Assembly: GCA_024401275.1 (NCBI GenBank)
Contig: JAKSLJ010000031.1
Span: forward strand, 1 to 38,027
Origin: Bacteroidaceae bacterium
Lineage (GTDB): Bacteria; Bacteroidota; Bacteroidia; Bacteroidales; Bacteroidaceae
Length of the DNA stretch: 38,027 nt
Reading direction: 5' to 3'
The translations under genes were made by a program, and so were the position numbers. Of the stretch, positions 138 through 25,176 are shown in pieces. Below the pieces are notes generated by a model that was not told where the DNA came from, searched no databases, and saw only the letters and a list, made by a program, of their open reading frames with translations. The stretch's first letter is position 1. Every line of letters starts with the position of its first letter.

Positions 138-181
138 AAGGGAAACTAGGAAATTATTCTCCCAAACGACAAAAATGAAAA

Positions 182-1446: not shown

Positions 1447-1452
1447 CTGGTG

Positions 1453-1483
1453 CAAAGGTAAAACTTTTTTGCATTCCGCCAAA
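1453..1483 (-). promoter_or_regulatory. Minus-strand promoter, divergent from the GH3 gene
   Basis: Read on the minus strand, TTTG (1483-1480) stands 19 bp before TACCTTTG (1460-1453), a full match to the Bacteroidetes -33/-7 consensus. No sizeable minus-strand gene lies downstream, so its product would be the possible small RNA. Confidence 0.6.
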
Positions 1484-1521
1484 GAAAAATGCAAGAAAAA
1501 CCAAAAAATAACGCATTTTTC

Positions 1522-1552
1522 TTTATTTTTCGCCACTTTTTGAGTAAATTTG
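1522..1552 (+). promoter_or_regulatory. Promoter of the GH3-GH43 operon
   Basis: TAAATTTG at 1545-1552 matches TAnnTTTG. TTTA at 1522-1525 is the likely -33 box, 19 bp upstream. The ATG at 1584 leaves a leader of about 25 nt. Confidence 0.6.
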
Positions 1553-1583
1553 CAGCGAAATCAAATGAAATTCAAAAAAAAAC

Positions 1584-3770: not shown

Positions 3771-3819
3771 GGCGAACATTTGTAAACCACAATTCTGGTT
3801 TTATAAACAAAAACATAAT

Positions 3820-4977
3820 ATGAAAAGACTCAGTACAATAGCCTGTGCCTTAATGGCTTGCGCAACCGTTTTCGCAAAAGGCAACGAAAAACCACAGATA
3901 CCTTCAGAGGCTGAGATGGGTGCATACGTCATGGTTTATCACAAAGACGCAGACCACAGCCTACACATGGCTTTAAGCTACGACAGCTACAACTGGACAT
4001 CACTCAACGACGACAAGCCGGTAATATCTGGCGACAGCATAGCCATGCAACATGGCATACGCGACCCACACATCTTCCGCGGTCCTGACGGCGGTTTCTA
4101 CCTCGCCATGACCGACCTCCACATCTTCTCACAGAAGAAATTTGCTGACAATCCGCGTTTCTCCAAGATCTCGGAATATCGCGAGACGGAATGGGAACGC
4201 GACGGCTACGGATGGGGAAACAACAAGGGACTTGTGCTCATGAAGTCGTTCGACCTTATCCATTGGACACGCACAAACCTTGACTTCACAAAGCTTACTT
4301 GCAAGACCGGACTTACCGACCATCATGGCACCCCTATCCCATGGAGCGAGGTGGGCTGTGTTTGGGCACCGGAAACAGTTTATGACTATGAGACGGGCCA
4401 TCTTATGGTGCATTTCACGACTCGCATGAAAGCAGGTACAGAGATGATTTTCTATGTCTATATGAACGACGATTTCACAGAGATGATCTCAGAGCCAAAG
4501 CTTCTCTTCGAAGCTCCTCACGACAAGAACGGAATGGCTGCTTATACGGTCATAGACTCCGACATCTGCAAGGTTGGCGACACTTACCATCTCTTCTATG
4601 TTAGTCACGAAAGCACCCCTACCGTAAAGCATGCTACGAGCAAGAACATCACAGGTCCTTACACTATGGACGACAACTATAACGACGGCGAAAAAGAAGG
4701 CCACGAAGCACCTAACTGCTGGAAGCGTCTCGGTCAGGACAAGTGGGTTGTCATGTTCGACAACTACTACCGCCACCCACACAACTTCGGTTTCGTAGAG
4801 ACTACCGACTTCAAGACATTCACACCAATAGGTTATTTCGATGCGGAAGAGTCGCCTATGAAGCGCGCAAACTTCTCAGAACAGAAGCATGCAGCCGTAG
4901 CTCCGCTTACCGTAAAGGAGGCAAAGGCACTCGAAAAATTCTGGACAAAGACAACAAAGAAAAACAAGAAGAAATAG
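3820..4977 (+). CDS. GH43-like five-bladed propeller glycosidase, secreted
   Basis: The product has 385 residues, with a signal peptide ending near residue 20 (ATVFAKG). The propeller pattern is clear: RDPHIFRGPDGGFYLAMTD (Asp82, candidate general base), VGCVWAPETVYD, YTVIDSDICKVGDTYHLFY (Asp246 or Asp248, candidate pKa modulator) and EGHEAPNC (Glu293 or Glu296, candidate acid). WAPE and DGxFYL motifs are typical of GH43-type arabinosidases and xylosidases that trim side chains. It follows the GH3 gene by 49 bp and precedes the DUF4491 gene by 19 bp, so the three are probably co-transcribed, and the two enzymes may act on the same hemicellulose. The C-terminus is Lys-rich. Fold assignment is secure; the exact GH43 subfamily or a related clan-F family is not. 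Confidence 0.8.
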   Translation: MKRLSTIACALMACATVFAKGNEKPQIPSEAEMGAYVMVYHKDADHSLHMALSYDSYNWTSLNDDKPVISGDSIAMQHGIRDPHIFRGPDGGFYLAMTDLHIFSQKKFADNPRFSKISEYRETEWERDGYGWGNNKGLVLMKSFDLIHWTRTNLDFTKLTCKTGLTDHHGTPIPWSEVGCVWAPETVYDYETGHLMVHFTTRMKAGTEMIFYVYMNDDFTEMISEPKLLFEAPHDKNGMAAYTVIDSDICKVGDTYHLFYVSHESTPTVKHATSKNITGPYTMDDNYNDGEKEGHEAPNCWKRLGQDKWVVMFDNYYRHPHNFGFVETTDFKTFTPIGYFDAEESPMKRANFSEQKHAAVAPLTVKEAKALEKFWTKTTKKNKKK

Positions 4978-10351: not shown

Positions 10352-11323
10352 ATGGCAGCAAATAACAACAGTCTTGGCAAAGCAAAGAAAGCCAAGAAAG
10401 ATGAATTCTACACCCAACTTCCAGATATAGAAAAGGAACTTAGACACTACGAGCATCATTTCAAAGACAAGGTAGTGCTGTGTAATTGCGATGATCCTAA
10501 AGTGAGTAACTTCTTTGTGTACTTCGTAAGGAATTTCAAGCACTTAGGATTGAAGCGTCTTATCACCACTTGCTATAAGAATAACGAGCCTTCTCTATTC
10601 AGTAATAATGATAGTGAACAGGCTGTTTACCTTATTTATGATGGAGGTGATGACAATAATCCGGATCCCGTAAAAGTGTCAACAACAGCCGTACCATTGA
10701 AAGGTGATGGCGACTTTCGTTCTATGGAATGCATCGAACTTCTGAAGCAAGCAGACATAGTCGTTACAAATCCGCCATTCTCTCTTTTTAGGGAATATGT
10801 TGCACAGCTGATTAGATACGAGAAGAAGTTCTTGATAATAGGAAATCAGAACGCGATTACTTACAAGGAGATATTCCCCCTAATTAGGAATAATAAGCTA
10901 TGGTTAGGATATGGCTTCACAAGAAATTGCGCTCATTTCATAAATAAATCATACGAGGATACAGCTACGGATGCAGACCATCGTGAAGGAATGATAAGAG
11001 TTTCTGGCGTCATGTGGTTTACCAATATGGATGTAAAACAAAGGCATGAAGAGCCAGAGCTATTCAAGAACTATACTCCTGAAGCATTTCCGCACTATGA
11101 TAATTTTGATGCTATCAATGTTGACAAGGCGGCGGAAATTCCTCTGGATTATAGTGGCATGATAGGAGTACCTATCACATACTTGCAGAAACATTGTCCA
11201 GAGTATTATGATATTCTTTATTGCAGTGCGTTCTCTGATGAGAGCAACTACGGATGTGGCTCTTTGAAAATCAACGGCAAAAAGATATATGCACGATTAA
11301 TCATCAAAAAGAAACAGCAATGA
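10352..11323 (+). CDS. EcoRI-family adenine-specific DNA methyltransferase
   Basis: The product has 323 residues. The catalytic motif IV is DIVVTNPPFSLF (NPPF at 140-143). The start KAKKAKKDEFYTQLPDIEKEL, the block VVLCNCDDPKVSNFFVYF (SAM-site region) and FLIIGNQNAITYKEIFPLI after the motif are the ordered signatures of the EcoRI methylase family (PF13651). It would methylate adenine N6 in a specific site; the site cannot be read from sequence. Its TGA overlaps the ATG of the DUF262-HNH gene (ATGA), so the two are translationally coupled. The leader suggests strong control of its synthesis. AT-rich codon use, unlike the flanking operons, points to horizontal transfer. It may be the protective half of a restriction-modification pair, or an orphan methylase. 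Confidence 0.9.
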   Translation: MAANNNSLGKAKKAKKDEFYTQLPDIEKELRHYEHHFKDKVVLCNCDDPKVSNFFVYFVRNFKHLGLKRLITTCYKNNEPSLFSNNDSEQAVYLIYDGGDDNNPDPVKVSTTAVPLKGDGDFRSMECIELLKQADIVVTNPPFSLFREYVAQLIRYEKKFLIIGNQNAITYKEIFPLIRNNKLWLGYGFTRNCAHFINKSYEDTATDADHREGMIRVSGVMWFTNMDVKQRHEEPELFKNYTPEAFPHYDNFDAINVDKAAEIPLDYSGMIGVPITYLQKHCPEYYDILYCSAFSDESNYGCGSLKINGKKIYARLIIKKKQQ

Positions 11324-12462
11324 AAGAAAAGATGACAATAGAACTTCAGAAGATTACTATCCGTGAGTTGATTGATGGTTATCGCAATGATGAAGAAGAA
11401 GGTGTTGTAGCATACCATGGTCTTCTTAATGTAAGGCCAAAATATCAGCGCGAGTTTGTGTATTCACCGGAGAAGCAGATTGCTGTATTACGAAGTGTAA
11501 TGCATGGCTACCCTATAGGTGTTATGTATTGGGTTCGCAATGAAGACGGAACTCTTGAAATGCTCGACGGTCAGCAGCGTACAGTAAGTATATGTGAATA
11601 TGTAGCAGCTAATGCATTCAGCATAGATTCCTTCAAATTCCACAATCTTCAAGAGGCGAAGCCCAAGTTGGCAGAGGAAATACTTGACTATACGATTCAT
11701 GTATATTTCTGTGAGGGTTCTACTGACGATAAACTAGAATGGTTCAGGACGATAAACATTGGTACAGAGCCTTTGAAAGACCAAGAAATGCGCAATGCTT
11801 TCTATACAGGAGAATGGCTTACAGATGCGAAGAAGAAGTTCTCCAAGGTTACTGGAGTATGTGTAAGGAAGAACGAAGGGCTTGTTACAGGCACTCCAAA
11901 CCGACAGGAACTATTGGAAAAGGTTCTACTATGGAAAGCTCAATATGATGGAATAGATGAAGGAAAGCCCGACCTTACAATTCGCAAATACATGGCTGAG
12001 CATCAGCATGATGGTAATGCTGATAGTGAACGCCAGTATTTCTTCAAGGTTATAGATTGGGCAAACATGCTTTTTGATGGTAACTGGAAGATTAAGAAGG
12101 GGCAGCCATGGGGTGAACTCTACAATCTTTATCATAATAATGACTATGACTCAACATTCCTTAAATCAGAAGTAGAGCGTCTTTTGATTGATGATGAAGT
12201 TGAGAGAAGTGGAAAAATGGGAATAATCCGCTATCTGTTGAGTGGTGATGAGAAATACTTGAATCTCCGAACCTTTAGTTATGCTCAGAAACTGACATTG
12301 TACCAAAGGCAAAAAGGTATATGTAATATTTGTAAGAAGCATTTCGCATTTGAAGAAATGGAAGCAGACCATATAGATCCTTGGAAGGATAATGGAAAGA
12401 CTATTTTAGAAAATGGTCAGATGCTTTGTAGGCATTGTAATAGAACAAAAAGTGATAAGTAA
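11320..12462 (+). CDS. DUF262 protein with C-terminal HNH nuclease domain
   Basis: The product has 380 residues. A frame open 22 codons further upstream lies inside the methyltransferase; the ATG at 11320, overlapping its stop, is the natural start. The N-terminal DUF262 (ParB/GmrS-like NTPase) domain shows YQREFVYSPEKQ and the DGQQR motif at 83-87. The middle is helical. The last 47 residues form a zinc-type HNH fold with CNIC (Cys335, Cys338), EADHIDPW (His351), Asn365 and CRHCNRTKSDK (Cys370, Cys373). The third catalytic position is Asn374, an HNN variant as in many HNH enzymes. Related DUF262 nucleases act in modification-dependent (GmrSD) or phosphorothioate-linked (SspE) phage defence. 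Here, coupling to an adenine methylase suggests a restriction partner. It is followed by a terminator. The role is inferred. Confidence 0.8.
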   Translation: MKEKMTIELQKITIRELIDGYRNDEEEGVVAYHGLLNVRPKYQREFVYSPEKQIAVLRSVMHGYPIGVMYWVRNEDGTLEMLDGQQRTVSICEYVAANAFSIDSFKFHNLQEAKPKLAEEILDYTIHVYFCEGSTDDKLEWFRTINIGTEPLKDQEMRNAFYTGEWLTDAKKKFSKVTGVCVRKNEGLVTGTPNRQELLEKVLLWKAQYDGIDEGKPDLTIRKYMAEHQHDGNADSERQYFFKVIDWANMLFDGNWKIKKGQPWGELYNLYHNNDYDSTFLKSEVERLLIDDEVERSGKMGIIRYLLSGDEKYLNLRTFSYAQKLTLYQRQKGICNICKKHFAFEEMEADHIDPWKDNGKTILENGQMLCRHCNRTKSDK

Positions 12463-12525: not shown

Positions 12526-14724
12526 CTAGAAGAAGACAGTCATGCCGATGCGCATTGGCTTGGACTGATAGACCTTGTAGTCCGCATGGCTTGGGGCATG
12601 GTTGAGGAGACCATGCGAAGTGGTGAAGTCAAACATGACATTCTTGATGCGAATGGATGCACCAACTTCCCAACTGGCATTGAAGCGCTTCTGGAACGGG
12701 TTATCCCAATCGTCCTCCTCGAGCAGGCTCCAGCTGCCGAGTTCCTCATCGTCATCGTCGCAGTCGTACTCGTAAACATTGGAACCGATGATGCAGTCGA
12801 GACCTACACCACCGAAGACACCGAGTTGGAAGTACTCGCTGAAGTTGGCTGTGAACTTGAGGTGGAGCGGGAGGTAGAGGTTATGCTCGCTGTAGAGGTT
12901 CTTGGCGGTGAAGTACTCGCGCGGACCATGGTAGCCCTCGTAGTAGTCGCTGAACTTGTCGCTGTTTGCCCAGAAGTACTCGTAGAAGAGACCTGTATGG
13001 AGGCCGAAGCCTGCACCGAACTGCGGATCGTAGGTGATACCAGCCTGGATACCGTTGACGAACTTGTCTTCGTCGAACATGCCTTCCGTCTGCTTATGAC
13101 CGTCAATGTCGAACTCCCATACCTTCTGCACGTAGCCGGCAGTAAGGCCTAAGACGCACTCGTCGTTAGGATTCTCGTTGAAAGCCTTGCGGTACTTGTA
13201 TGGGGTATAACCGCCAGAGTTGTTGCTGCCAGAGTTGTAGGAACTTGTGGTGCCTGAATTTGATGAGGTCGATGGCTTTGAGCTAGTTACGTTTGTAGCG
13301 CTGCAAACAGGGCGGATAGCAGTATACCTATTTATTGAACGTCCATCACTTTCAAGCTCATTATAACTATCATAGCTGAAAGTGATAATATACGCCTCAT
13401 CCTTATTAAAGTTGTTCTTGTCACGTAACCATGACATAATTTCACGGCCACCGCCTTGCATTTTGTAGGCTGGGAGGAAGATGGAGTTGCCGTTAGGACC
13501 AGTCACCTGCATTCCATACACATTATTGTAATAGCCTTCAAGGAATGTACAGTTTTCAATCAGCTCATCGTACTCATCTGAAGAAGGAATACGCCATGAG
13601 CCTTTCCAGTTGAAGCGGGCAGCATCTTTGCTCATTGGCAGCTCGTCTAATTCTTCGTTGGATTTGTCGTATGGTACATCTTCTATGCTGCGTGGTTGTA
13701 CCTCTCCCCAGCGGAAACTGTAACCGTCTTCAGTTGGCGATGATGCACCGATGTCTGTTGTTGCCCACTTGGTACCTGAAGGTAGGCCAAGGTCAACATA
13801 TCCATGGCCATTCTCGTAACCCGTAGGTGATGATGGGGCTTTGGTTATTTTTACTGTGGACAGTATTCGGCTGCCGTTTGAGTCATATATAGCTTCTGAC
13901 TTCTTACTATCATCCTTTTTGTATTTTTCCCAGAAGCCATTGTCGTCGTAGTACACAGGCCTGATCATTGCAGGCACATTCTTGGTACGAGGAAGGCATG
14001 TAAGCTTGTCGAAGTATACAGTACTGAATGCTATCATTGCTCCATAGTCATCACGATAATCGTATTCTTCGGAGAGCCAGTAATAGATGACAGGATTCTC
14101 TTCACTTGCGCTTGTGGCAGCAGGAAGGAAGATGGAGTTGCCGTTAGGTCCGGTGATCTTGACTCCATAATTGCCATTGTAGGAACCTTCCTCGAGTTTG
14201 CAGTACTTTAAGACCTCGTTGGCCTGATCTTTTGTAGGTATGCGCCACTGGCCTTTCCAATTTGCACGGGCGGCATCGTCCGTAAGTATGATTTGGCTAT
14301 AGCTGTGTGCTGTTGCTGCATAGTTCTTATCCTGAGCTGCAGTCTTGGTCGAGCCCCAGTTGTAGGTGGCGGTTTTGCCTGATGAGAGTGTAGAGCCAAG
14401 GTTCTCGGTAGCCCACTTGGTGCCTGATGGCAGGCCAAGGTCAACGTAGCCATGTCCATTGTCATTGCCTGTAGCTGATGTTATGGTCTTGAATACTGTG
14501 CTTTTCTTGTACCTTACCTTGTTGTCGTCGTAGACTTTGCTTAAACCGGAACTCGCGATTTTCTGGCCATTGTATTTTGGACCTTTGTTAGACTTGGCAT
14601 ATTTGCTGCCTACGGGATTGTCAGCTGGGTTGGTAGGACCAGATGCCATACAAGCAACGGATGCCATGAGTGCCAGGGCCAGAAGCAGGAGGCGATGGCG
14701 TTGGGAAATGAATAAGTGTTTCAT
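12526..14724 (-). CDS. FISUMP-domain outer-membrane beta-barrel protein (internal start of the fused frame)
   Basis: Starting at ATG 14724 the product would have 732 residues, with a signal sequence (MKHLFISQRHRLLLLALALM, then ASVACMASG). Two FISUMP domains lie at about 91-258 and 307-473. Each begins GHGYVDLGLPSGTKWAT and contains WRIP and GPNGNSIFLPA, the marks of the Fibrobacter succinogenes major paralogous domain. A Ser/Thr/Asn linker (474-510) leads to a barrel of about 208 residues with alternating strands (LYLPLHLKFTANFSEYFQLG) and a terminal Phe, as for BAM-inserted barrels. The intact signal peptide argues that this is a separate protein, at least ancestrally. No separate promoter was found, so it probably depends on the promoter at 15900-15930. 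The function of FISUMP is not established. Confidence 0.7.
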   Translation of the reverse strand: MKHLFISQRHRLLLLALALMASVACMASGPTNPADNPVGSKYAKSNKGPKYNGQKIASSGLSKVYDDNKVRYKKSTVFKTITSATGNDNGHGYVDLGLPSGTKWATENLGSTLSSGKTATYNWGSTKTAAQDKNYAATAHSYSQIILTDDAARANWKGQWRIPTKDQANEVLKYCKLEEGSYNGNYGVKITGPNGNSIFLPAATSASEENPVIYYWLSEEYDYRDDYGAMIAFSTVYFDKLTCLPRTKNVPAMIRPVYYDDNGFWEKYKKDDSKKSEAIYDSNGSRILSTVKITKAPSSPTGYENGHGYVDLGLPSGTKWATTDIGASSPTEDGYSFRWGEVQPRSIEDVPYDKSNEELDELPMSKDAARFNWKGSWRIPSSDEYDELIENCTFLEGYYNNVYGMQVTGPNGNSIFLPAYKMQGGGREIMSWLRDKNNFNKDEAYIITFSYDSYNELESDGRSINRYTAIRPVCSATNVTSSKPSTSSNSGTTSSYNSGSNNSGGYTPYKYRKAFNENPNDECVLGLTAGYVQKVWEFDIDGHKQTEGMFDEDKFVNGIQAGITYDPQFGAGFGLHTGLFYEYFWANSDKFSDYYEGYHGPREYFTAKNLYSEHNLYLPLHLKFTANFSEYFQLGVFGGVGLDCIIGSNVYEYDCDDDDEELGSWSLLEEDDWDNPFQKRFNASWEVGASIRIKNVMFDFTTSHGLLNHAPSHADYKVYQSKPMRIGMTVFF

Positions 14725-15831
14725 AGTTCTATGTGTTTTAGAAGGTGTAAAAATCGTTCGTAGGGCGAAGACTGACGCCAGTTGGAGATACTCAGGAGCC
14801 ATGAGCGTGTGAGGCCAGAAGATGCCGACGCAAATGACCAAAGCCACAGAAGCGGCAACGAGCTTACGCAATAACGAGCCACGACGGGTAAGGAAGACCA
14901 GTGGCAGCAAAGGATTGAAGAGCAGCAGTAGCCATGTCCACGACATGTGGGGCAGGTCGGTGCCAAGCCACAGGTAAGTGATGCACAGCCCCAACGTTAA
15001 CCATGCTGCCATACAGAAACGCCACGACAGCAGACACAATACGACCAAGATAAGAAGCACCCAAGAAGTAGAAATAAAGACGGGCTCAGGCTTACCTGTG
15101 GATGGTACCAACCACTCGGCATCTTTGCTGAGCACCGGTTGCCCGTTGATGGTGGCGTTCTGTAGTGCCTCGGCCATATACGTAGGAATGAATATCTGGT
15201 CGTGCATCGGTAGGATTATGTCGGCATCGGAGCCTGTGATGGTCATGGTAAACAGCTTGGCCCATGAGTTGGCGCAGTCGTAATCGGTTACCACATCGTG
15301 GAAGGTGTGACCCATGAGTTTAGGCATGTCCTGATATTCTATGACATCGGCGTCGAGAGCCTGCTCAAGCATGAGTTGTATGCGCGATGTACAGTTCCAC
15401 CCCATTGGGTCGAAGATAATGGTCTGTCCTCGTTCCACGTCATTATCGAGGGCACGCCATAGCTCGCGCTTCACCTCATCGGGTAGTAGGAGCTTGTACT
15501 GACACACCCCACGTCCCTCGGCTTGATAGCGCTCGGTAAACTGGTTGGTGGGCATGGCAATCATGCCTGCCTGCAACTTGCCTGTGATGAAAAGGCGATT
15601 CATGTCCTCTTCAGGAACATCAGAGAGAACGCTGAAGCAGAAATCCATGTCGTACTCGGGGCACACCATTCTCAATGCAGCATGACCAGCAGCAGAGCTG
15701 ATTTTGGGACTGGGATCGACGACGATGAGGTATGAAGACACAAACTCCTGCTCTTCTGCAGGCACATCGGTTTCTGCTGCCCATAGTGAAGTAGTAAGGA
15801 ACATGAGTATCGTTAGTAAAAGGTCTCGCAT
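12526..15831 (-). CDS. Fused frame: DUF4105 (Lnb-like) membrane protein + FISUMP/outer-membrane barrel protein
   Basis: The frame is open without a stop for 1101 residues from ATG 15831. This start is preferred to the ATG at 15975 because the promoter lies between them, at 15900-15930. Part one has a signal-like start (MRDLLLTILMFLTTSLWAAE), the DUF4105 core (SSAAGHAALRM near 45-55, WNCTSRIQLMLEQAL near 145-159, IFIPTYMAEAL near 213-223) and membrane helices at about 254-340. Part two starts at Met370 (14724) with its own signal peptide, two FISUMP domains and a C-terminal barrel. The normal stop of the first gene seems to be missing, and a degenerate copy of the palindromic element lies at the join. 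The proteins may be made as one chain or separately from the internal start. Confidence 0.7.
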   Translation of the reverse strand: MRDLLLTILMFLTTSLWAAETDVPAEEQEFVSSYLIVVDPSPKISSAAGHAALRMVCPEYDMDFCFSVLSDVPEEDMNRLFITGKLQAGMIAMPTNQFTERYQAEGRGVCQYKLLLPDEVKRELWRALDNDVERGQTIIFDPMGWNCTSRIQLMLEQALDADVIEYQDMPKLMGHTFHDVVTDYDCANSWAKLFTMTITGSDADIILPMHDQIFIPTYMAEALQNATINGQPVLSKDAEWLVPSTGKPEPVFISTSWVLLILVVLCLLSWRFCMAAWLTLGLCITYLWLGTDLPHMSWTWLLLLFNPLLPLVFLTRRGSLLRKLVAASVALVICVGIFWPHTLMAPEYLQLASVFALRTIFTPSKTHRTMKHLFISQRHRLLLLALALMASVACMASGPTNPADNPVGSKYAKSNKGPKYNGQKIASSGLSKVYDDNKVRYKKSTVFKTITSATGNDNGHGYVDLGLPSGTKWATENLGSTLSSGKTATYNWGSTKTAAQDKNYAATAHSYSQIILTDDAARANWKGQWRIPTKDQANEVLKYCKLEEGSYNGNYGVKITGPNGNSIFLPAATSASEENPVIYYWLSEEYDYRDDYGAMIAFSTVYFDKLTCLPRTKNVPAMIRPVYYDDNGFWEKYKKDDSKKSEAIYDSNGSRILSTVKITKAPSSPTGYENGHGYVDLGLPSGTKWATTDIGASSPTEDGYSFRWGEVQPRSIEDVPYDKSNEELDELPMSKDAARFNWKGSWRIPSSDEYDELIENCTFLEGYYNNVYGMQVTGPNGNSIFLPAYKMQGGGREIMSWLRDKNNFNKDEAYIITFSYDSYNELESDGRSINRYTAIRPVCSATNVTSSKPSTSSNSGTTSSYNSGSNNSGGYTPYKYRKAFNENPNDECVLGLTAGYVQKVWEFDIDGHKQTEGMFDEDKFVNGIQAGITYDPQFGAGFGLHTGLFYEYFWANSDKFSDYYEGYHGPREYFTAKNLYSEHNLYLPLHLKFTANFSEYFQLGVFGGVGLDCIIGSNVYEYDCDDDDEELGSWSLLEEDDWDNPFQKRFNASWEVGASIRIKNVMFDFTTSHGLLNHAPSHADYKVYQSKPMRIGMTVFF
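14760..14779 (+). repeat. Degenerate end of the palindromic element at the gene-fusion point
   Basis: GTAGGGCGAAGACTGACGCC matches the first arm of copy B (GTAGGGCGAAGTTTACTGAG) after allowing a 3-base gap. It sits between codons 350 and 358 of the fused frame, just before the second signal peptide. Confidence 0.45.
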
Positions 15832-15899
15832 ATGTATGTGCGTTAGTGTGGAGGTATCACAGCTTTCATAAAATACGACTTCATGTCGCAATCCGTCGG

Positions 15900-15930
15900 C
15901 AAAGTTACTACTTTCTATTCTATCTGCAAA
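15900..15930 (-). promoter_or_regulatory. Promoter of the DUF4105/FISUMP frame
   Basis: On the minus strand TTTG (15930-15927), a 19-bp spacer and TAACTTTG (15907-15900) form an ideal promoter. It fixes the start of the gene at ATG 15831, downstream of it. Confidence 0.75.
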
Positions 15931-15964
15931 ATATTTCGGTGAAAAGTTGATGGTGTGATAAGAA

Positions 15965-15999
15965 ATTGTCCCCAATGTTGAGTGAACATTGGGGACAAT
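15965..15999 (-). terminator. Terminator of the susC-susD-susE-like operon
   Basis: ATTGTCCCCAATGTT (15965-15979) pairs perfectly with AACATTGGGGACAAT (15985-15999) around 5 nt. On the minus strand TTTCTTATC follows. It lies 25 bp after the stop of the SusE-like gene and shields the next promoter. Confidence 0.8.
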
Positions 16000-16024: not shown

Positions 16025-17848
16025 TTACTTCTTGAAAGAAGCGAACTTCTTGGAAACTGGCTTGAAGCTCTTGTGCATTGCAGCTGCCTTCTTAAGAGGA
16101 AGTGAGCGCTTCATGTTCTTGACAGAGATTGGGCTTGCAGCCTTTGCCTTACGCGGTGCCTCAGCATAGCCTGTGAGCTGGTAAGTGTCCATAGTGAAGC
16201 CGAAGTCACCTGCCTCAACTGACCATGCAAGGTTGAAGACGAATGTGCCAGACTCTTCGTCGTAGTAGCTTGGCAACTGGTCTGTAAGGCCTGCTGTTGT
16301 GAGGTCCCAAGCGAAGATGTCGCCATACCTAGAGTCAGTAACACCTGTGTAGCAAGGCTCTACAATGATGTTGTTCTCTTCGTCAATAGTGAAGACAAGT
16401 CCTTCGCCTTCTGTGCCATTATCCTCATAGCCGAGGTTAACCCAAGGAGAAATCATCAACTTGTTCTCGTTCTGGTCGCATTCGTAGAGGATCGCCTCTT
16501 CAGGATCGTAGTCTTCCCACATAGGTCCACCTTCCTCGCTATAGCTCTTAACGCAGTGTGTGTAGATACCCTTGTAGTATGCTGTGTAAGTCTCCTTGCC
16601 ACCACCTTCAGGAATCTTGACGAGTGCGTTGAAAGCACCCTGCTCATTACCTTCCTCGTCATAAGTTACGACAACAACAGAGTAGTCGCCTGGCTGGTCG
16701 TATGGGAAGCGGAGCTCAGAGCTTTCTGTAATCTCCAGAACAGACTCGTCGCCATTCTGGATCATTTCGTAAGCAACCATTGGGTCCTTGCCAGCAGCCA
16801 TTGCAGCCTTGGCAGAAGCTACATTCTCGCCGAGAGTTACGTTGACAACAGCCTGTCCGTTCTCCTTAGTGTCGATAAGACGGCCTACGACGTCAATCTC
16901 AGCAGAGTAGTCAGACATTTCGAAGCCAGGGAAAGTGATGATGATGTCACCATCAGACTCAGAACCTCCCCAGCCGCCTATACCGAACATGTAGTATTCA
17001 GGAGCGAGCTGGATAGCACCTACAGTACCGTCTTCCTGATATGCAAGAACCTTGTTCTGCATCCAGTTAGAAGGATCGTTAAGACTATTGAATACGCCAG
17101 GGAATACGAGGCAAACATTAGCGTTGTAAGTTGTGTTAAGGTAACCAGTATTGAACTCGTAGTGGCTTCCGTCGCCATAGAAGTAAACCATGTCGTCCTC
17201 TGGAACAGTCTGTTCAAGAACAACGTCGCCCTTCTTGAGCACCTTGAAGTAGAGCCATGGTGAAGCATCTTTTCCGCTTGGAACGAAGACGTTCTCAATA
17301 CGATAGAGAGAAGGCTCTACCTGGTTCTGGTAGATGTCCATCTTCACCTCAAAGCCCCAGAAGAAGTCTTCCACGAGCTTACCCTGACCGACGCTTACCC
17401 AAGGAGCAGGAATACCAGCGATGAGAGTGAACTCAGAAACGCCGTAAGGAGAAGTGGCGTCAACATCCTTGATGGCAACCTTGATAGTGTCAAAATGGTC
17501 GAACTCCATCTCTTCAGGATTATAAGAGAAGTTGAGTGAGCCGTCCTTTGCACCAGCAGCGAAAGAGACGCTTGGGGCAGAGCAGCTGATCTTTGAACCT
17601 TCAGGAATCTGAACGGTTACAGCAACATTTGCAGCATCAGCCGTCTTGACGCGGCTTACAGGAATAGAGAATGAGTTCTCCTTGCTGCTGAGGTTCTTCG
17701 TTGTAACGGAATTAACGCCGTTGAAGTAAACCTCCATACCTGCAACCTTCTGGGCAGGCGTATAGTCTTCGCTTTCAGTACAAGCTGAGAAGCCGAAGGC
17801 AAGGGCTGCCATAAGGGCAAGTGTGTATATTTTATTAATGTATTTCAT
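16025..17848 (-). CDS. SusE/SusF-like surface lipoprotein
   Basis: The product has 607 residues and a lipoprotein signal (MKYINKIYTLALMAALAFGF, then SAC with Cys23). It is last in the susC-susD operon, where SusE/F-type glycan-binding lipoproteins usually lie. The N-terminal part has repeated beta-sandwich-like segments (AANVAVTVQIPEGSKIS, DTIKVAIKDVD) of the Calx-beta/BACON kind. The C-terminal half has Trp- and Tyr-rich strands (WVSVGQGKLVEDFFWGF, TGVTDSRYGDIFAWDL) that could bind sugars. The end is unusually basic (PRKAKAASPISVKNMKRSLP, SFKPVSKKFASFKK). I see no enzyme motif. Sequence does not show which glycan or other ligand it binds. Confidence 0.75.
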   Translation of the reverse strand: MKYINKIYTLALMAALAFGFSACTESEDYTPAQKVAGMEVYFNGVNSVTTKNLSSKENSFSIPVSRVKTADAANVAVTVQIPEGSKISCSAPSVSFAAGAKDGSLNFSYNPEEMEFDHFDTIKVAIKDVDATSPYGVSEFTLIAGIPAPWVSVGQGKLVEDFFWGFEVKMDIYQNQVEPSLYRIENVFVPSGKDASPWLYFKVLKKGDVVLEQTVPEDDMVYFYGDGSHYEFNTGYLNTTYNANVCLVFPGVFNSLNDPSNWMQNKVLAYQEDGTVGAIQLAPEYYMFGIGGWGGSESDGDIIITFPGFEMSDYSAEIDVVGRLIDTKENGQAVVNVTLGENVASAKAAMAAGKDPMVAYEMIQNGDESVLEITESSELRFPYDQPGDYSVVVVTYDEEGNEQGAFNALVKIPEGGGKETYTAYYKGIYTHCVKSYSEEGGPMWEDYDPEEAILYECDQNENKLMISPWVNLGYEDNGTEGEGLVFTIDEENNIIVEPCYTGVTDSRYGDIFAWDLTTAGLTDQLPSYYDEESGTFVFNLAWSVEAGDFGFTMDTYQLTGYAEAPRKAKAASPISVKNMKRSLPLKKAAAMHKSFKPVSKKFASFKK

Positions 17849-17878
17849 ATACGGTTTTTAGTTTTTTATTTGGATATG

Positions 17879-17955
17879 CCCGACGAAGAATCGTCGGGAA
17901 CGGGGGCTGTTAGTCAGCCTCGACTGAAATCGTCGGAACGGGGGCTATTAGTCAG
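17879..17955 (-). repeat. Hairpin and direct duplication of the susD 3' end
   Basis: CCCGACGA (17879-17886)/TCGTCGGG (17891-17898) forms an 8-bp hairpin. TCGTCGGGAACGGGGGCTGT and on to 17917 is repeated with small changes at 17930-17955. The second copy includes the susD stop codon, so the first is a duplicate of the gene's very end in the susD-susE gap. Confidence 0.65.
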
Positions 17956-19594
17956 TAACGCCGTCGCGGAGAGATGGTTCCTGACCTGATTCAGGGAGCG
18001 AACCGCCCTTGTTGTCAACGATAGCCATGTTGTATTCGTACTCGTACTTAGAGAAACGCATGTTGAGCCATCCGTCGTTAGCCTGCATGTTGAACTTGAA
18101 TGCGTCAGGCACATTGCTTTCCTGTTCTTCGCCATGGAAGCGAACGAGTGGCTTGCCAAGACGCTTCATGTCGGCTGTGAAGAAACCTTCGCCCCAAAGT
18201 TCAATACGACGCTGGAACCAGATTTCGTCAGTAAGAGAACGGCTACTCATATCGCATCTGTATGAAGGGTCGCGATAATTCTGTACGAAGAAGTTGAGAA
18301 GGTCGCGAGCTTCCTGTTCACGGTTGCTCTTAGCAAGACCTTCAGCTCTGATGAGGTACATTTCCTCAACGCGCATGAATGGCCAGTCGTTGTTGTTAGT
18401 AGTAGAACCGATACCAGACTTCATACCGAACTTAACGTTAGCGTATGCAGGGAATGGCACCTTGTTGCCGTCTGGGTCTTCCCAACCAGGGATAGCCTGT
18501 CCCTTAACGCCAGTAGTACCCCACTCAAGACCATCAAGAAGCGGAGACTGCTTGTCAGCATTCAACCACCATCCCTTACGAACGTCAGTAGCAGGAATCT
18601 TATCGTAAAGAAGGACATTGATCATTGGAGTATTCTCTGTAGCAGCTGCATAGCCGTTCCATGAGAAAGAAGAAATCCAAGAAGCAACAGTAGCGTAGCC
18701 AGCATCACCGAGAACTTGCTTTTCAGTCATGATGTAACCCCACATCCAGTTTTTCTCATCAATCTTGCAGAAAGAAGGATGGCTTACCTCTTCGATAGAA
18801 GCAGGCTCGTAGTTACCGATAGCCTTCTCTGCATCAGCAGCAGCTTCAGCCCAGTTACCCATAGCGAGATTAGCACGAGCACGGAGACCGTAAGCTACGT
18901 CCTGGTCAATCTGCATCTTGTTAGGACGCTCGAAACCAGCGAGCTTCTCAACAGCATAGTTGAGGTCTTCGATGATATACTCCCAAACCTCCTTGTTGGT
19001 AGCGCGAGGGTTGTTAGCATAGTCAACGCCATCACGAAGGATAGGAATACAGAGATCGTCTGGATGGCTTGCGCAGTCGAATGCGAAGTAAGGAGCGAGC
19101 TGCATGTAAGCGAAAGCACGCATAGCACGAGCCTGAGCCATGTTGTAGATAGCTGCCTTATCCTGAGTGTCTTCTGGGTAAGAAGCGATAACCTGGTTGC
19201 AGACACCAATCTGAGTGTAAGGATGCTTGTAGCGCTCGTATGGGTTAGCGTAAGAAGCATCGCGTGAAGTCATAGCACCACAAGTAGAGAACCAGTTGTA
19301 GTTATTGTTCATCATTACGAGGTCAGCACCTTCTGCGTCCTGGCTGAGCGCCATAGAGCCGTAACCGAAGTCGTCGGCACGCCCGCTGCTTTCACCGTAA
19401 ACAGCGTATGGCTCCAACATCATAGTGAACATACCGCTGAATGTAGCGTTGATGCGCTCTGGATTAACCTTAGTTATCTCCTGAAGCTGCTCGGCAGTAA
19501 TATTGTTGTCTTGTGGGTACTGCTCGTCGATGTCGCTACAAGAAGCAACGAGGAGAGCACCAGCGGCAAGAGTAAGAATTTTATTTAGTTTCAT
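17948..19594 (-). CDS. SusD/RagB family nutrient-binding outer-membrane lipoprotein
   Basis: The product has 548 residues, usual for SusD. The lipobox is LVASC (Cys19). TPR-like helices (AQARAMRAFAYMQLAPYFAF, RARANLAMGNWAEAAADAEK) and the late motif FMRVEEMYLIRAEGLAK with WGEGFFTADMKRLGKPLVRF are typical of SusD/RagB. It would sit as a lid on the SusC barrel encoded just upstream (gap 22 bp) and capture an oligosaccharide or peptide at the cell surface. No glycosidase gene is in this operon, so the substrate is unknown. Confidence 0.9.
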   Translation of the reverse strand: MKLNKILTLAAGALLVASCSDIDEQYPQDNNITAEQLQEITKVNPERINATFSGMFTMMLEPYAVYGESSGRADDFGYGSMALSQDAEGADLVMMNNNYNWFSTCGAMTSRDASYANPYERYKHPYTQIGVCNQVIASYPEDTQDKAAIYNMAQARAMRAFAYMQLAPYFAFDCASHPDDLCIPILRDGVDYANNPRATNKEVWEYIIEDLNYAVEKLAGFERPNKMQIDQDVAYGLRARANLAMGNWAEAAADAEKAIGNYEPASIEEVSHPSFCKIDEKNWMWGYIMTEKQVLGDAGYATVASWISSFSWNGYAAATENTPMINVLLYDKIPATDVRKGWWLNADKQSPLLDGLEWGTTGVKGQAIPGWEDPDGNKVPFPAYANVKFGMKSGIGSTTNNNDWPFMRVEEMYLIRAEGLAKSNREQEARDLLNFFVQNYRDPSYRCDMSSRSLTDEIWFQRRIELWGEGFFTADMKRLGKPLVRFHGEEQESNVPDAFKFNMQANDGWLNMRFSKYEYEYNMAIVDNKGGSLPESGQEPSLRDGVTD

Positions 19595-19616
19595 CTTTTA
19601 TTCCTTTCTTAATATA

Positions 19617-22600
19617 TTAGAATGTCACAGTAATACCAGCTGTTACAGAACGACCTGCAGAGTAAGCATCAGAAATCATACCTGCACCAGAAGTCATGGA
19701 ACCGATACCGTAGTTGAAACGAGGGTCAAGACCCTTACGAGCTGTGAGGAGGAAGAGGTTCTCGCCGGAGAAGTAAACGCGGAGACCGCGGATTTCGAGA
19801 GTGCGAAGAACGTTCTTTGGAACATTGTAACCAACAGTAAGGTTGCTCAAGCAGAGATAGTTAGAGCTTGTGAGGAAGAAATCGATAGGTGTCTGAGAAT
19901 CAACGAGAAGACCGTCGTCAGAAGCAGCAGAACTCCAACGTGGGATGTTAGAGTTAGGATTTTCCTCTGACCAGCAGTTGCGGAGATCCTTGTGGAGGTT
20001 AGAACCTGGATCGAAGCCCATTGTACGCTGATAAGAACCATCGTAGATCTTACCACCGAGAGAGTAGGTGAACTGAGCAGAGATGTCGAAGCCGTAGAGG
20101 TTGAGAGTAGTACCGAAACCACCTGTGAGGTCGGCAAGTGTAGTACCCAAGTCGAACTGGTCAGCCTCTTCGTAGTTTGTAGTAGTTACGATGTTGCCAG
20201 TCTTATTGCCATCCTTGTCGCGCTCATACATGTAGTACTGAGCCTTACCCTTGTCAGCTTCCAACTTAGGATCGTTTGTTGGGTTAGTGAATACGCCAGC
20301 ATACTTGAGGAGGTAAGCGTCGTAGATAGAACCACCTACGCGGATAATCTGGTCAGAGTAAGTAAGACCCTCTGGTGGGACAGTTGAGTCGAGCTTAGTA
20401 ATCTTGTTCTTGTTTGTAGTAGCGTTGAGGTTGATAGACCACTCGATGTTCTTAGTCTTGATAGGAGTATAGTCGAGAGTGACTTCAAGACCCTGGTTGT
20501 ACATGTTACCAACGTTGAGTGGGTAGCGAGATACAGGAAGACCAGAAGAAAGTGGAATACGACGTGAGTAGAGCATGTCTGTAGTATTACGACGATAGAA
20601 GTCGATGCTACCGTTCAAGCGATAGTTGAAGAAGGAGAAGTCAACACCGAAGTTCCAAGACTTGTTCTTCTCCCAAGTGAGGTCTTCGTTGCCCTTCTGA
20701 GCAAGTGTGAGGCTGTATTCGCCTGTATCCTCGTTGTAAGAAGAGCTGTAACGGTCAGCCCACATGGTGTTGTTGCTTGGGAAAGCAGTACCTGTGTAGA
20801 GGTTGTCGTTACCGTTAGAACCCCAAGATGCCTTGAGCTTCAAGAGGTTGATCCACTTAGCATCAGCGAGGAAAGCTTCCTTGTTGATCTGCCAAGCAGC
20901 ACCTACAGAACCGAATGTACCCCAACGATGACCAGGAGCAAAGCGTGAAGAAGCCTCACGACGGATAGAAGCACTAAGGTAGTAACGCTCGTCGTAATCG
21001 TAAGAAGCACGAGCGAGGAAACCTTCTGTCATGTAAGTACCAGTAGCAGAACTTACAGACATGTCAGCCTTGCCGAGAGCGTTGTCAAGTTCAGCGATGA
21101 ATGGGCTGAAGAGGTGAGAGTTCTGACCAGAGAGAGCCTGCTCCTTGAGGTTGTACTGCTCGTAACCAGCAATAACGCTGATGTTGTGCTTGTCAGCAAT
21201 TGTAGTCTGATAGTTAGCAGTATAGAGTTGGTTTGTAGAGAAGTAACGGTCGCTTTCCACATAAACGATACCATCGTAAGCAGCGCTGCTTCCGAATGGG
21301 CTGTAGAGAGCGTTGTAACGAGAGTTGAGGTTCTGAGCTGTAAGAGCAGCAGTAAGAGTCATACCCTTGAAAGGAGTAACGTCAGCCTGCCATGTTCCCA
21401 TGAAGTAGTCGCGGACAGTATTCTTGTTGTCAATCTCGTTGTCGCCAATAGCGTTACCTACGATAGAAGGACGCTTCTGGTTAGTCTGGTTACGGTCGTA
21501 AACCTTCATGCCGTCCTTCATCTTGATAGAGCCGTCAGCGTTGCGAACGTAGAGTGGGTAGATTGGACCCATTGAGTTTGCGATGTAGAAGATGTTGCCT
21601 GATGAACCGTAATTAGAAGAAATAGAAGGAGACTTAGCGTCTGTATGAGTATAGTTCATGTTGGAAGTGAACTTCAACCATTCACGAATCTGATAAGAAA
21701 CGTTAGCACGACCATTATAACGCTGGTACTGAGAGTTGCTTACCATACCGCCGTCATCGAGATAGCCGAGACCTGCGTAGTAAGTAAGACGACCGCTGGC
21801 TCCGCTTACAGAAGCATTGTACTCCTGACGGAATGAGTTGTGGAATGCCTCGTCATACCAGTTGTCTGGCTGATAGTAGTATTCGCCGTCAGTATAACCC
21901 TTTACAGCGTTAGGGTTGAACTTGAAGTTTGTACCTACAAGACGCTGACCTTCAGGAATTGTGAACACCTGATAACCAACACCACCGTTGTTGCGGTTGA
22001 GGAGATTTGCATTAGCGAAGTCGTGAGCAGCCTCAGCAGTAGAGCCATGGTAGTACTTTGAACCCCAAAGTCCCTTATAAACCTGCTCGTAATACTCTTC
22101 AGGAGAAGTGATTACGTCGTAGTTTGGAACAAGACGAGAGTTAGAACCCCACTTTGCGTCAACCGTAATCTGAGGGTCACGACCGACCTTTGCCTGCTTT
22201 GTTGTGATGATGACAACACCGTTACCACCACGAGCACCGTAGATGGCAGAGGCAGAAGCATCCTTGAGGACAGAGATAGACTCAATGTCGCCAGGATTGA
22301 TATCAGCAACATTACCGTCAAGTGGAGCGCCATCAACGATGTAGAGAGGAGCTGAACTTGCACTCATGGAACCGATACCACGAACGCGGATAACAGGAGC
22401 AGAGCCAGGAGCACCTGATGAAGAAGTAGCAGTTACACCAGCCATCTTACCTACAATGGCAGAAGTGGCAGTTGAAGTAACGTGCTTTGAGATGTCAGCT
22501 GACTTAACCTCAGCAGCAGCACCTGTGAAGGCAGAACGCTTTGAAGTACCGTAACCGATGACCATTACTTCATCGAGAAGTGACTCGTCAGCATCGAGAG

Positions 22601-22874
22601 CTACACGCATGTTCTGCGCAGCCTTCATTGTCTTTGACTCCATTCCTACATAAGAGAACTCAATGTTGGAGTTCTTAGAAGGAACTGTGATTGCGAAGTG
22701 ACCGTCAACATCGGTGATAACGCCCTTGTCGCTACCAGCCACCTTAACTGTCGCTCCGACTACAGGCTCGCCATCATCGCTTGACACGACAACACCGTTA
22801 GCCTCTACCTGTGCCATAGCCATGCCTACGAAGCAGAACAATGACACAAGGATCATAGTTAGTCTTTGTTTCAT
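19617..22874 (-). CDS. SusC/RagA family TonB-linked outer-membrane transporter
   Basis: The product has 1085 residues, full length for the family. The signal peptide ends at about residue 21 (FVGMAMAQ). A carboxypeptidase-like regulatory domain follows (about 25-100, GEPVVGATVKV and GHFAITVP), then the family motif DEVMVIGYGTSKRSAFTGA and the TonB plug (LYIVDGAPLDG, IESISVLKDASASAIYGARG). The barrel fills the rest and ends SVTAGITVTF with a terminal Phe. With SusD it imports ligand using TonB energy. It is the first gene of the operon. Its only visible promoter lies in a segment between 20-bp inverted repeats, which suggests phase-variable expression. Confidence 0.95.
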   Translation of the reverse strand: MKQRLTMILVSLFCFVGMAMAQVEANGVVVSSDDGEPVVGATVKVAGSDKGVITDVDGHFAITVPSKNSNIEFSYVGMESKTMKAAQNMRVALDADESLLDEVMVIGYGTSKRSAFTGAAAEVKSADISKHVTSTATSAIVGKMAGVTATSSSGAPGSAPVIRVRGIGSMSASSAPLYIVDGAPLDGNVADINPGDIESISVLKDASASAIYGARGGNGVVIITTKQAKVGRDPQITVDAKWGSNSRLVPNYDVITSPEEYYEQVYKGLWGSKYYHGSTAEAAHDFANANLLNRNNGGVGYQVFTIPEGQRLVGTNFKFNPNAVKGYTDGEYYYQPDNWYDEAFHNSFRQEYNASVSGASGRLTYYAGLGYLDDGGMVSNSQYQRYNGRANVSYQIREWLKFTSNMNYTHTDAKSPSISSNYGSSGNIFYIANSMGPIYPLYVRNADGSIKMKDGMKVYDRNQTNQKRPSIVGNAIGDNEIDNKNTVRDYFMGTWQADVTPFKGMTLTAALTAQNLNSRYNALYSPFGSSAAYDGIVYVESDRYFSTNQLYTANYQTTIADKHNISVIAGYEQYNLKEQALSGQNSHLFSPFIAELDNALGKADMSVSSATGTYMTEGFLARASYDYDERYYLSASIRREASSRFAPGHRWGTFGSVGAAWQINKEAFLADAKWINLLKLKASWGSNGNDNLYTGTAFPSNNTMWADRYSSSYNEDTGEYSLTLAQKGNEDLTWEKNKSWNFGVDFSFFNYRLNGSIDFYRRNTTDMLYSRRIPLSSGLPVSRYPLNVGNMYNQGLEVTLDYTPIKTKNIEWSINLNATTNKNKITKLDSTVPPEGLTYSDQIIRVGGSIYDAYLLKYAGVFTNPTNDPKLEADKGKAQYYMYERDKDGNKTGNIVTTTNYEEADQFDLGTTLADLTGGFGTTLNLYGFDISAQFTYSLGGKIYDGSYQRTMGFDPGSNLHKDLRNCWSEENPNSNIPRWSSAASDDGLLVDSQTPIDFFLTSSNYLCLSNLTVGYNVPKNVLRTLEIRGLRVYFSGENLFLLTARKGLDPRFNYGIGSMTSGAGMISDAYSAGRSVTAGITVTF

Positions 22875-23000
22875 AAAGTGAAAATTAATAATTATTGTTT
22901 AGTTTTTATCTTCATTTTTCTTCTTGTTTCATCCTTGCTATTGCACCTGAATCCACGCAATTAAGCCTCTCTTGGATATGCTCGAAAATACCTTTTTGCA

Positions 23001-23210
23001 GTATCGGGTTTATGAGAAATGGGCTATAAGCAGAGCTTAATTTTCTGCAAAGTTATGTATTTTTTGGACAAATAATGGCAGAAATGTGAATAAACCTTAA
23101 AAAAAATAATTTATGATATTGATTTAAAACAAAAGTCGCCATTTTATGCACAAACGTTTTCCAAAATGTGCATAAAAACTTCAAATTGTTATTTCTCATA
23201 AACCCGATAC
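23001..23210. promoter_or_regulatory. Putative invertible promoter segment upstream of susC
   Basis: GTATCGGGTTTATGAGAAAT (23001-23020) and its exact reverse complement ATTTCTCATAAACCCGATAC (23191-23210) flank 170 bp. The flanks outside and inside the repeats do not match. The segment holds a minus-strand TAACTTTG (23055-23048) pointing at susC, with a weak -33. It also has an internal inverted repeat, TTTATGCACA (23143-23152)/TGTGCATAAA (23167-23176). No other promoter is visible between it and susC. As drawn the susC operon would be ON; inversion would point the promoter at the helicase. No recombinase gene is in the window. Confidence 0.65.
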
Positions 23211-23266
23211 CTTAAGGAAAAGATTCTTTGCAAAAAGAAAGAGAGAAACAAAAAAATCAATACTTC

Positions 23267-23297
23267 TTGGCAGTTCAAAAAATTATCACTAACTTTG
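23267..23297 (+). promoter_or_regulatory. Promoter of the helicase gene
   Basis: TTG (23267-23269) and TAACTTTG (23290-23297) are 20 bp apart. It lies outside the inverted repeats, so the helicase would be transcribed whichever way the segment faces. Confidence 0.7.
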
Positions 23298-23316
23298 CAG
23301 CCGTAAAAGAGAAAAT

Positions 23317-25176
23317 ATGAACAACGAACTGACAAAAGCGCAGACACTTATCGAGCAGACGGGCATGAACGTGCTGCTTCTTGGTAAGGCTGGAACCGGA
23401 AAAACAACATTTCTTCGTAACCTTTATCAGCGTGGCATGAAACGCATGGTTATCCTTGCACCAACAGGTGTGGCTGCAATGAACGCGGGAGGAACTACAA
23501 TACATAGTTTCTTCCAGTTGCCTTTGAGTCCTTTCGTGCCTGACACGCAATTCCGAACAAACGACAGCAGCGCACAACGCAGATTCAAGTTCAGCAAGGA
23601 GAAACGCGCCATAATCCGCAGCCTTGACCTTCTTGTGATAGACGAGATTTCCATGGTTCGCGCCGACTTGCTTGACGCGGTTGACCAGGTTTTGCGCCGT
23701 TTCCGCACAGATCATCACAAACCTTTCGGTGGTGTTCAACTTCTTCTCATAGGTGACTTGGCACAGCTGGCACCAGTTGTTACAGACCGAGACAGAGATA
23801 TTCTCCGCGGCTATTACGACACACCATTCTTCTATGGCTCAAAAGCCTTGCAGATAACACCTTATGTAAGCATAGAACTGACCAAGGTTTTCCGCCAGAC
23901 TGACGAGCAGTTCCTCAACATTCTCAACGAGATACGAAGTGGAAATGTCAAGCAGGAAACGCTCGATCTCCTGAACAAAAGATACCAACCAGAGGCAGCC
24001 AACACAGAAGGCTATATCCGACTGACCACTCACAACCGCACAGCTGACAACTACAATCAGCAGATGCTTGACGCCATTGACCGACAAGAGTTCACATACA
24101 AATGCAAGGTGGAAGGCGATTTTCCGGCTAACCTCTACCCTATCGACGAGGAACTCCGACTAAAAGAAGGCGCACAAGTGATGTTCTGCAAGAATGACTC
24201 TTCTGCCGAGCATCAGTATTACAATGGAAAAATTGCGCAAGTCATTGATTTGGAGAAGAATAAGATTGTAGTACAATGTCTTGAAGACGACGAGATTGTA
24301 GAAGTTCCGCAACACGAATGGACAAACTCAAAATACACTCTCGACAGCGAAACGCACGAGATTGTAGAGGACATTCAAGGCAGATTCGTACAGTTTCCAC
24401 TACGACTTGCATGGGCAATAACAATTCATAAAAGCCAAGGTCTGACCTTTGACAACTGTATTATAGATGCCGAACATTCCTTCGCTTCCGGTCAGGTTTA
24501 CGTTGCCCTCAGCCGTTGCCGCACCCTTGAAGGTCTTGTTCTCTCCTCTCCTATCAGTACTCGCGGCATCATCGTGGAGCAATCTGTCCGCGCTTATCTT
24601 GACGACCAGACAGAGAGAAGCACAGATGCAACGAAAGACATGGCTATGCTCCGTAAAGCTTATTACGTAAATCTTATAAGCGAGATGTACGACTTCAACG
24701 GCATCTACCAAGCTCATGAACGCGTTCAGCGCATTCTTCAGGATGGCTATGTCAAGAAGATGCCAGCGCTCGTTTCACGCTACAACGAAGCATACATGAA
24801 GGTTAAGCCTGAACTGATAAATGTAGCAGATAAGTTCAAGGCTCAATATGATTATCTGATAGCCAATTCCGAGGACTATGAGAACGACGAGAAGATAAAA
24901 GAGCGTCTGGAAAAAGGTACGGAATATTTTACAAACAAGCTGAAGGAGATTTACAAAAACATTCTCGGAGACGAAGCGCCATCAACAGAAAACAAGGCGA
25001 TTCAGGAAAGAATGGACACAGCTCACGCCGACTTCATGGACATTCTGCGCATAAAGACAGAAACGCTTAAAGAAATAAAGAAATCCGGTTTCTCTACGAC
25101 AAACTATCTGAAAGCCAAGGCAAAAGCTGCGACTTCTGATGTAAAGAAAAAGAGAACAACTAGGAAAAGAAAATAA
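23317..25176 (+). CDS. PIF1/RecD-like AAA helicase
   Basis: The product has 619 residues. Walker A is GKAGTGKTT (Lys29), APTGVAAMNAGGTTIHSFF is motif Ia, and VIDEISMVRADLLD is Walker B. GGVQLLLIGDLAQLAPV is motif III, and AITIHKSQGLTFD and GQVYVALSRC are motifs V and VI (UvrD C2 type). These in order define the superfamily 1B PIF1-like helicases common in Bacteroidales. The last 180 residues are helical and highly charged, with a Lys/Arg-rich end, and may bind DNA. It would unwind DNA 5' to 3' in repair or replication. It is transcribed away from susC from its own promoter. Confidence 0.9.
   Translation: MNNELTKAQTLIEQTGMNVLLLGKAGTGKTTFLRNLYQRGMKRMVILAPTGVAAMNAGGTTIHSFFQLPLSPFVPDTQFRTNDSSAQRRFKFSKEKRAIIRSLDLLVIDEISMVRADLLDAVDQVLRRFRTDHHKPFGGVQLLLIGDLAQLAPVVTDRDRDILRGYYDTPFFYGSKALQITPYVSIELTKVFRQTDEQFLNILNEIRSGNVKQETLDLLNKRYQPEAANTEGYIRLTTHNRTADNYNQQMLDAIDRQEFTYKCKVEGDFPANLYPIDEELRLKEGAQVMFCKNDSSAEHQYYNGKIAQVIDLEKNKIVVQCLEDDEIVEVPQHEWTNSKYTLDSETHEIVEDIQGRFVQFPLRLAWAITIHKSQGLTFDNCIIDAEHSFASGQVYVALSRCRTLEGLVLSSPISTRGIIVEQSVRAYLDDQTERSTDATKDMAMLRKAYYVNLISEMYDFNGIYQAHERVQRILQDGYVKKMPALVSRYNEAYMKVKPELINVADKFKAQYDYLIANSEDYENDEKIKERLEKGTEYFTNKLKEIYKNILGDEAPSTENKAIQERMDTAHADFMDILRIKTETLKEIKKSGFSTTNYLKAKAKAATSDVKKKRTTRKRK

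Follow-up and report, generated by a model that had tools for sequence, protein, structure and literature searches.

A 210-bp unit upstream of a susC gene is probably a site-specific, phase-variable promoter switch of the operon formed by susC, susD and a third gene. The unit lies in a stretch of 38,027 nucleotides, the whole of which we call "the window", and is made up of two exact 20-bp inverted repeats, the "arms", and the 170 bp between them. The arms bracket a promoter motif that is oriented toward susC, and between the window and a second species an identical change of two bases is seen in the one arm and in the other. An earlier, sequence-only reading of this DNA had proposed an invertible susC promoter. 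The proposal stands as the best reading of the locus on account of the co-varying arms in the second species, and is weakened by the fact that both known copies, in the assemblies of the two genomes, are in the ON orientation.

Results

The susC-proximal arm, GTATCGGGTTTATGAGAAAT, occupies positions 23001..23020 (+), with its inner half TTATGAGAAAT facing the segment, and its exact inverted copy, the distal arm, occupies 23191..23210 (-); the putative invertible segment is the 170 bp in between (23021..23190, no strand). The exact 20-bp inverted copies described from the letters alone are therefore real. Inverted repeats of 10-40 nt around a non-coding segment, as found at 23001-23210, are the property by which invertons are defined in the account of PMC11892184, which also sorts them into motif groups. 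The window holds exactly one 20-bp inverted pair with a start-to-start spacing of 600 bp or less, and 20 dinucleotide-preserving shuffles of the window yielded no pair of 16 bp or more within that spacing, in keeping with the earlier claim that the odds of an accidental 20-bp pair are tiny. With up to three mismatches allowed, the arm was found in the window at its two known places only, and in none of 100 shuffles. A search of the whole genome to which the window belongs (G000; 3.2 Mb, 71 contigs, 91% completeness) for more copies of the repeat, as the earlier reading had suggested, returned none within two mismatches, and the sole additional site at three mismatches is C67:93111. Chance or an assembly artefact could be invoked insofar as the locus was read from one MAG contig, and is scarcely credible in the face of the shuffles and of a second MAG that shares this architecture.

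Two longer exact inverted pairs occur in the window, one of 26 nt (842 nt apart) and one of 24 nt (29 kb apart), and both are members of an interspersed repeat family found elsewhere in the window. A repeat that starts GTAGGGCGA is present in direct and inverted copies at window positions 3767, 5428, 6167, 7088 and 36369, and repeats of this type also occur on another contig of the same genome (L034 5526-5593).

Read toward susC, the order of elements is the distal arm, the 170 bp with an inner dyad and a -7 box, the proximal arm, a 126-bp leader and susC. Promoter boxes were called with TAnnTTTG, which we take to be the Bacteroidales-type -7 consensus. The box TAACTTTG at 23048-23055 (-), whose counterpart in the second carrier is TAAATTTG, is the sole TAnnTTTG box in the segment and the only one between susC and the neighbouring helicase gene that faces susC. 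The earlier statement that the segment contains a single recognisable susC promoter thus agrees with the motif search, and a promoter inside the repeats that faces the gene of a surface molecule, as in invertons, is present at the level of the motif, with a weak, non-canonical -33 element (the closest TTG lies 13 nt upstream of the box, compared with 20 nt at the helicase box). A sigma-70 consensus scan of 22800-23400 gave no promoter. The inner dyad, TTTTATGCACA-N14-TGTGCATAAAA (23142-23152 and 23167-23177, no strand), is partly kept in the second carrier and is possibly a regulator site that would flip together with the promoter. An RNA structure or riboswitch was considered and rejected: the susC leader folds no better than shuffled sequences (z 1.36), and the only Rfam match in 22800-23400, outside the segment, has 21.8 bits against a cut-off of 55.6. 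No RNA hairpin is expected between the arms, because transcription is predicted to start downstream of the distal arm.

Family models identify susC (19617..22874, -) as the gene of a SusC/RagA TonB-dependent receptor of 1085 aa and susD (17948..19594, -) as a gene of 548 aa. The third gene of the cluster, in the susE position (16025..17848, -; 607 aa), has no Pfam match, and its only NCBIfam domain match is below cut-off; the earlier designation susC-susD-susE is accordingly backed by family models in its first two members and has no Pfam family behind the third. Flipping of the segment should cost susC its promoter. Behind the operon, window positions 12526-15975 encode a 1149-aa protein whose N-terminal domain is Lnb-like and which matches Lcl_C below the cut-off, and at 10352-12462 an EcoRI-type adenine methyltransferase gene overlaps the gene of a GmrSD_N/HNH protein, perhaps as a restriction-modification pair.

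The neighbour on the far side of the segment is a PIF1-like helicase gene (23317..25176, +). The helicase gene has a promoter of its own whose -7 box (23290..23297, +) is outside the segment, and flipping should therefore be unneeded for helicase expression. In the second carrier the helicase gene does not adjoin the segment, and the neighbour is instead an alkaline-phosphatase-like gene that points in the same direction as susC and is followed by an inverted repeat of terminator-like appearance. The suggestion that inversion would direct transcription at the helicase consequently does not describe a conserved feature of the locus.

In the same genome, SusC family members were found at 24 places, 12 of which exceed the family cut-off. 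In the flanking DNA available for them, an exact inverted pair of more than 15 bp precedes the gene at this locus alone; the pairs at the other places measure 12-15 bp, or are located behind the gene (26 bp, L070). One of them, a 15-bp AT-rich inverted pair that spans 299 bp ahead of a second susC (L068 938-1236, G000:C23), is a weak switch candidate.

The second carrier is a horse-faeces MAG with a completeness of 86% (G112, the same genome as L017, as judged by equal places and scores). Two inner half-sites at a distance of 150-180 bp occurred as a pattern in 2 of 398 congeneric genomes, the window's own and this one. When the whole segment served as a DNA query and the top two candidates of each genome were scored, these two alone among the 398 were likewise returned. 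In the second carrier 171 bp separate the arms, ahead of an orthologous susC (87% protein identity). The homologous segment has the same orientation as in the window: 151 of 212 alignment columns are identical as assembled, compared with 112 of 219 when the interior is reversed. Within the interior, 117 of 172 aligned columns (68%) agree.

The arms themselves carry the strongest evidence. Both arms of the window read GTATCGG-GT-TTATGAGAAAT, and those of the second carrier read GTATCGG-TG-TTATGCAAAAT (distal) and GTATCGG-TG-TTATGAGAAAT (proximal). GTATCGG, TTATG and AAAT are unchanged in all arms, and at arm positions 8-9 the same change, GT to TG, is seen in both arms. The distal arm of the second carrier has two further mismatches (GCAAAAT versus GAGAAAT), so that its arms differ from one another at two other positions. 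A matched change is what would be expected if the bases involved in strand exchange must match, and two distant 20-mers that drift independently would rarely be expected to acquire an identical one. Conserved and co-varying arms were found in 1 of the 397 other congeners, and the covariation is a single evolutionary comparison (two species, one event) to which no statistic is attached.

Two other explanations bear on this comparison. The unit might be a former inverton that is locked ON, its arms being relics of recombination and its recombinase lost or absent. We consider this unlikely: neither genome yielded a dedicated invertase, the orientation is equal in both and the arms of the second carrier mismatch at two positions, but those of the window are exactly identical over 20 bp though about one third of the interior differs between the species, the two arms changed in step, and neither genome is complete. 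Alternatively, a DNA-binding regulator might use the arms as two operators and loop the promoter, with no recombination at all, an arrangement that the symmetry of the arms about the promoter and the additional dyad inside would suit. Operators, however, need neither a base-for-base match nor joint change, 20 exact bases with no internal dyad would be unusual for a dimeric regulator, and the genome holds no other copy within two mismatches; on these grounds we regard the operator pair as very improbable.

Homology between the two carriers covers the switch and the operon as a block (16158..23213, -; 82.4% identity over 7118 aligned columns). It begins at 23213, three bases outside the distal arm, and stops inside the third gene, close to its end, at 16158. 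The genes upstream of the block differ, with the helicase in the window and the alkaline-phosphatase-like gene in the second carrier. From these limits and the differing upstream genes it follows that switch and operon travel or persist as one block from which the helicase is excluded. When a wider query was compared with 40 relatives, the matches besides the locus itself were only 27-44 bp long, one of them elsewhere in the window's genome.

The coincidence of the homology limit with the distal arm, together with the terminal inverted repeats, is also what a MITE with 20-bp terminal repeats would leave on insertion ahead of susC, where it would have brought a promoter, and inverted repeats ahead of some distant susC genes do resemble interspersed repeats. 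Against such an insertion, the unit is present in a single genome copy, is flanked by no target-site duplication (TTGCA versus CTTAA) and is conserved with the operon, and we give it very little credence indeed. Mobile carriage was rejected as well, as the segment has no match in plasmid or phage collections. In viral contigs, no relatives of this SusC were confirmed and the paired-arm pattern had no match; a looser version of that pattern matched at least 120 stretches. Five single-arm-like sites in viral contigs, whose flanks are unlike each other and unlike the arms, are taken for chance, with no computed expectation behind that judgement.

We searched the genus for SusC relatives. At E <= 1e-300, 35 of the 398 genomes matched, and 30 loci were returned. 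The arms described here are present at two of the 30, those of the window and the second carrier, and absent from the other 28, whose SusC proteins are 52-60% identical. The full 900 bp upstream was available for 21 of these distant loci and less for 7, and in L113, L118, L121 and L130 the start codon assigned to the gene is uncertain. Other inverted pairs with a score of at least 12 occur upstream in 6 of the 28 (L105, L109, L110, L115, L120 and L129) and with a score of at least 15 in 5, compared with 5 and 0 of 150 shuffled upstream sequences. The pairs at those six loci are unrelated to the window's arms, and some resemble interspersed repeats. In a smaller set of SusC loci, 15 of 17 were scanned (L024 and L026 were left out for having less than 30 bp upstream), and short upstream DNA limited the scan at L018 (at most 62 bp), L020 (at most 4 bp) and L023 (at most 171 bp); the second carrier (L017) alone has the window's pair, and L019, L027, L029 and L032 have unrelated pairs. 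Unrelated inverted pairs before other susC genes mean that an inverted pair alone is no proof of a switch, and the bare repeat in the window counts for less as evidence on this account. As far as the comparison of these loci can tell, the matched arm change is what singles out the window's pair among inverted pairs upstream of susC.

Several of the distant loci deserve mention on their own account. Long perfect or imperfect inverted pairs with scores of 18-36 lie upstream of susC in L105, L109, L115 and L120. At L110 (G243:C188) two divergent susC genes, at 12-1001 (-) and 1345-4554 (+), are separated by a 343-bp spacer whose ends are perfect 30-bp inverted repeats that cover each start codon and leader; this may be a two-way susC switch of its own, or mere shared leader sequence.

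The recombinase that would act on the arms was sought in both carriers. No invertase gene was found among the scanned large genes of the window. PF00239 and model searches found no Mpi-like small serine invertase in either genome (completeness 91% and 86%), Mpi being one of the recombinases named in the earlier reading, and an invertase may have gone unseen in these incomplete genomes. PF00239 detected one serine recombinase in the window's genome, a 465-aa protein whose best model is CcrA and which scores 68 bits with the Mpi model against a cut-off of 272, and none in the second carrier; a serine invertase common to both genomes is not supported. The tyrosine recombinases of the window's genome are a XerD-like protein of 294 aa, a XerC-like protein of 320 aa (the Xer labels denote best matches, below the curated cut-offs of those models) and an integrase of 401 aa that has an arm-binding domain. 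Orthologues of these three in the second carrier are 89%, 73% and 83% identical, respectively (401 and 413 aa for the integrase), and its contig C50 has two more partial integrase matches side by side. Searches of the genomes for a dedicated invertase thus returned just Xer-like proteins, element-type integrases and one large serine recombinase; the recombinases common to both incomplete genomes are the XerC-like protein, the XerD-like protein and the 401-aa integrase, none of them linked to the arms.

The 401-aa integrase was demoted as a candidate, but not discarded, as its arm-binding domain is like that of element integrases and it is conserved beside a GGGtGRT gene. The arm pattern with up to four mismatches does not occur around it in 12 kb of the window's genome or 19 kb of the second carrier. 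The integrase and GGGtGRT genes (L036 2311-5626 and L100 6880-10196) are kept in both species and the DNA beyond them differs, which gives the locus the look of an integration hotspot whose cargo has been exchanged.

The inner half-site of the arms, TTATGNNAAAT, resembles the XerD half of dif, which we take to be TTATGTTAAAT in E. coli. All four arms of the two carriers match the XerD-type half-site consensus TTATGNNAANT, and in 99,838 bp of DNA from the window's genome this half-site occurs 7 times, two of which are these arms (TTATGNNAANT is contained in 70 of 99,724 20-mers). No XerC-type half-site is recognisable in the outer arm halves or their flanks. A search for a dif-like pattern gave 91 matches, compared with 51 for a control, and no clear dif for this genus; C67:93111 was rejected as the chromosomal dif for want of a XerC-type half, and C71:33290 because it appears to overlap a start codon. 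The cell's housekeeping recombinases for chromosome dimers, XerC/XerD, might invert the promoter, which would then need no invertase of its own. They would use the XerD-type half-site TTATGNNAAAT of each arm together with a XerC half that is degenerate, and the co-varying bases would lie in the core that is exchanged, much as phages borrow Xer. We put this forward as a rather doubtful proposal.

Discussion

A phase-variable promoter at this locus would work as follows. As assembled, the switch stands ON. A recombinase, presumably a tyrosine recombinase encoded elsewhere, would bind both 20-bp arms and exchange strands mid-arm around TCGGGT/TCGGTG; the 170-bp segment would flip, so that neither the -7 box nor the inner dyad would point at susC any longer, and some of the cells would have a silent operon, OFF being a predicted loss of transcription.

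Switches of this kind have precedents in Bacteroidales. PMC4747536 describes how outer-membrane loci and SusC/SusD clusters of B. fragilis undergo promoter inversion, the recombinases responsible having distant sites of action as well, and SusCD inversions are listed in the review PMC12632263, which was the only match to a literature search on Segatella copri and invertons. Close in design are IVp-I and IVp-II of Bacteroides fragilis, controlled by Tsr19/BF2766, where, as in the window, a promoter lies between inverted repeats ahead of surface genes (PMC4747536). By that account, one tyrosine recombinase, Tsr19, inverts one local and one distant promoter, and groES/EL across IVp-II is unaffected. 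The Tsr19 recombinase is known and linked to one of its sites (PMC4747536), whereas the window's putative switch has none linked to it. The B. fragilis recombinase Tsr0667 acts on SusC/SusD clusters (PMC4747536; cited in PMC12632263) as a shufflon with multiple inversions in three clusters and nine further regions (PMC4747536). The window differs in having one simple promoter pair with no other site copy within two mismatches; the several recombination sites within a SusC/SusD cluster that mark a shufflon were not found, one pair being present in the window. The Mpi regulon of B. fragilis, reported to comprise 13 regions with seven capsule promoters (PMC4747536), resembles the window in its short inverted repeats around promoters. 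In contrast, the window offers a single site before susC, no capsule locus and no small serine invertase in the genome searches.

Other reports bear on which genes are switched and by which enzyme. Resistance genes with invertible promoters are described from Bacteroidales including Prevotella (PMC8748976), and a polysaccharide promoter is reported to invert despite a defective adjacent recombinase (PMC13114119). Microvirus-related proviruses of Bacteroidetes seem, according to PMC3091885, to recombine at dif-like sites with no recombinase of their own. These elements, which probably borrow XerC/XerD, share with the window's segment a half-site that is dif-like, and for neither was a recombinase of its own found; but they integrate, whereas the window's segment would invert, and no XerC-type half can be recognised in it.

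Conclusions

The kind of switch is already known, and the window supplies a concrete arm sequence that is open to testing. It adds a probable phase-variable susC promoter in the genus, the nearest carrier found being a MAG from horse faeces. If no dedicated invertase exists, the question arises which enzyme flips the segment; if the Xer proposal were true, inversion worked by these proteins would link the phase variation of surface proteins with cell division and the segregation of chromosomes. In Bacteroides, phase-variable expression of SusC/SusD can decide which cells take up a nutrient or meet phages and antibodies.
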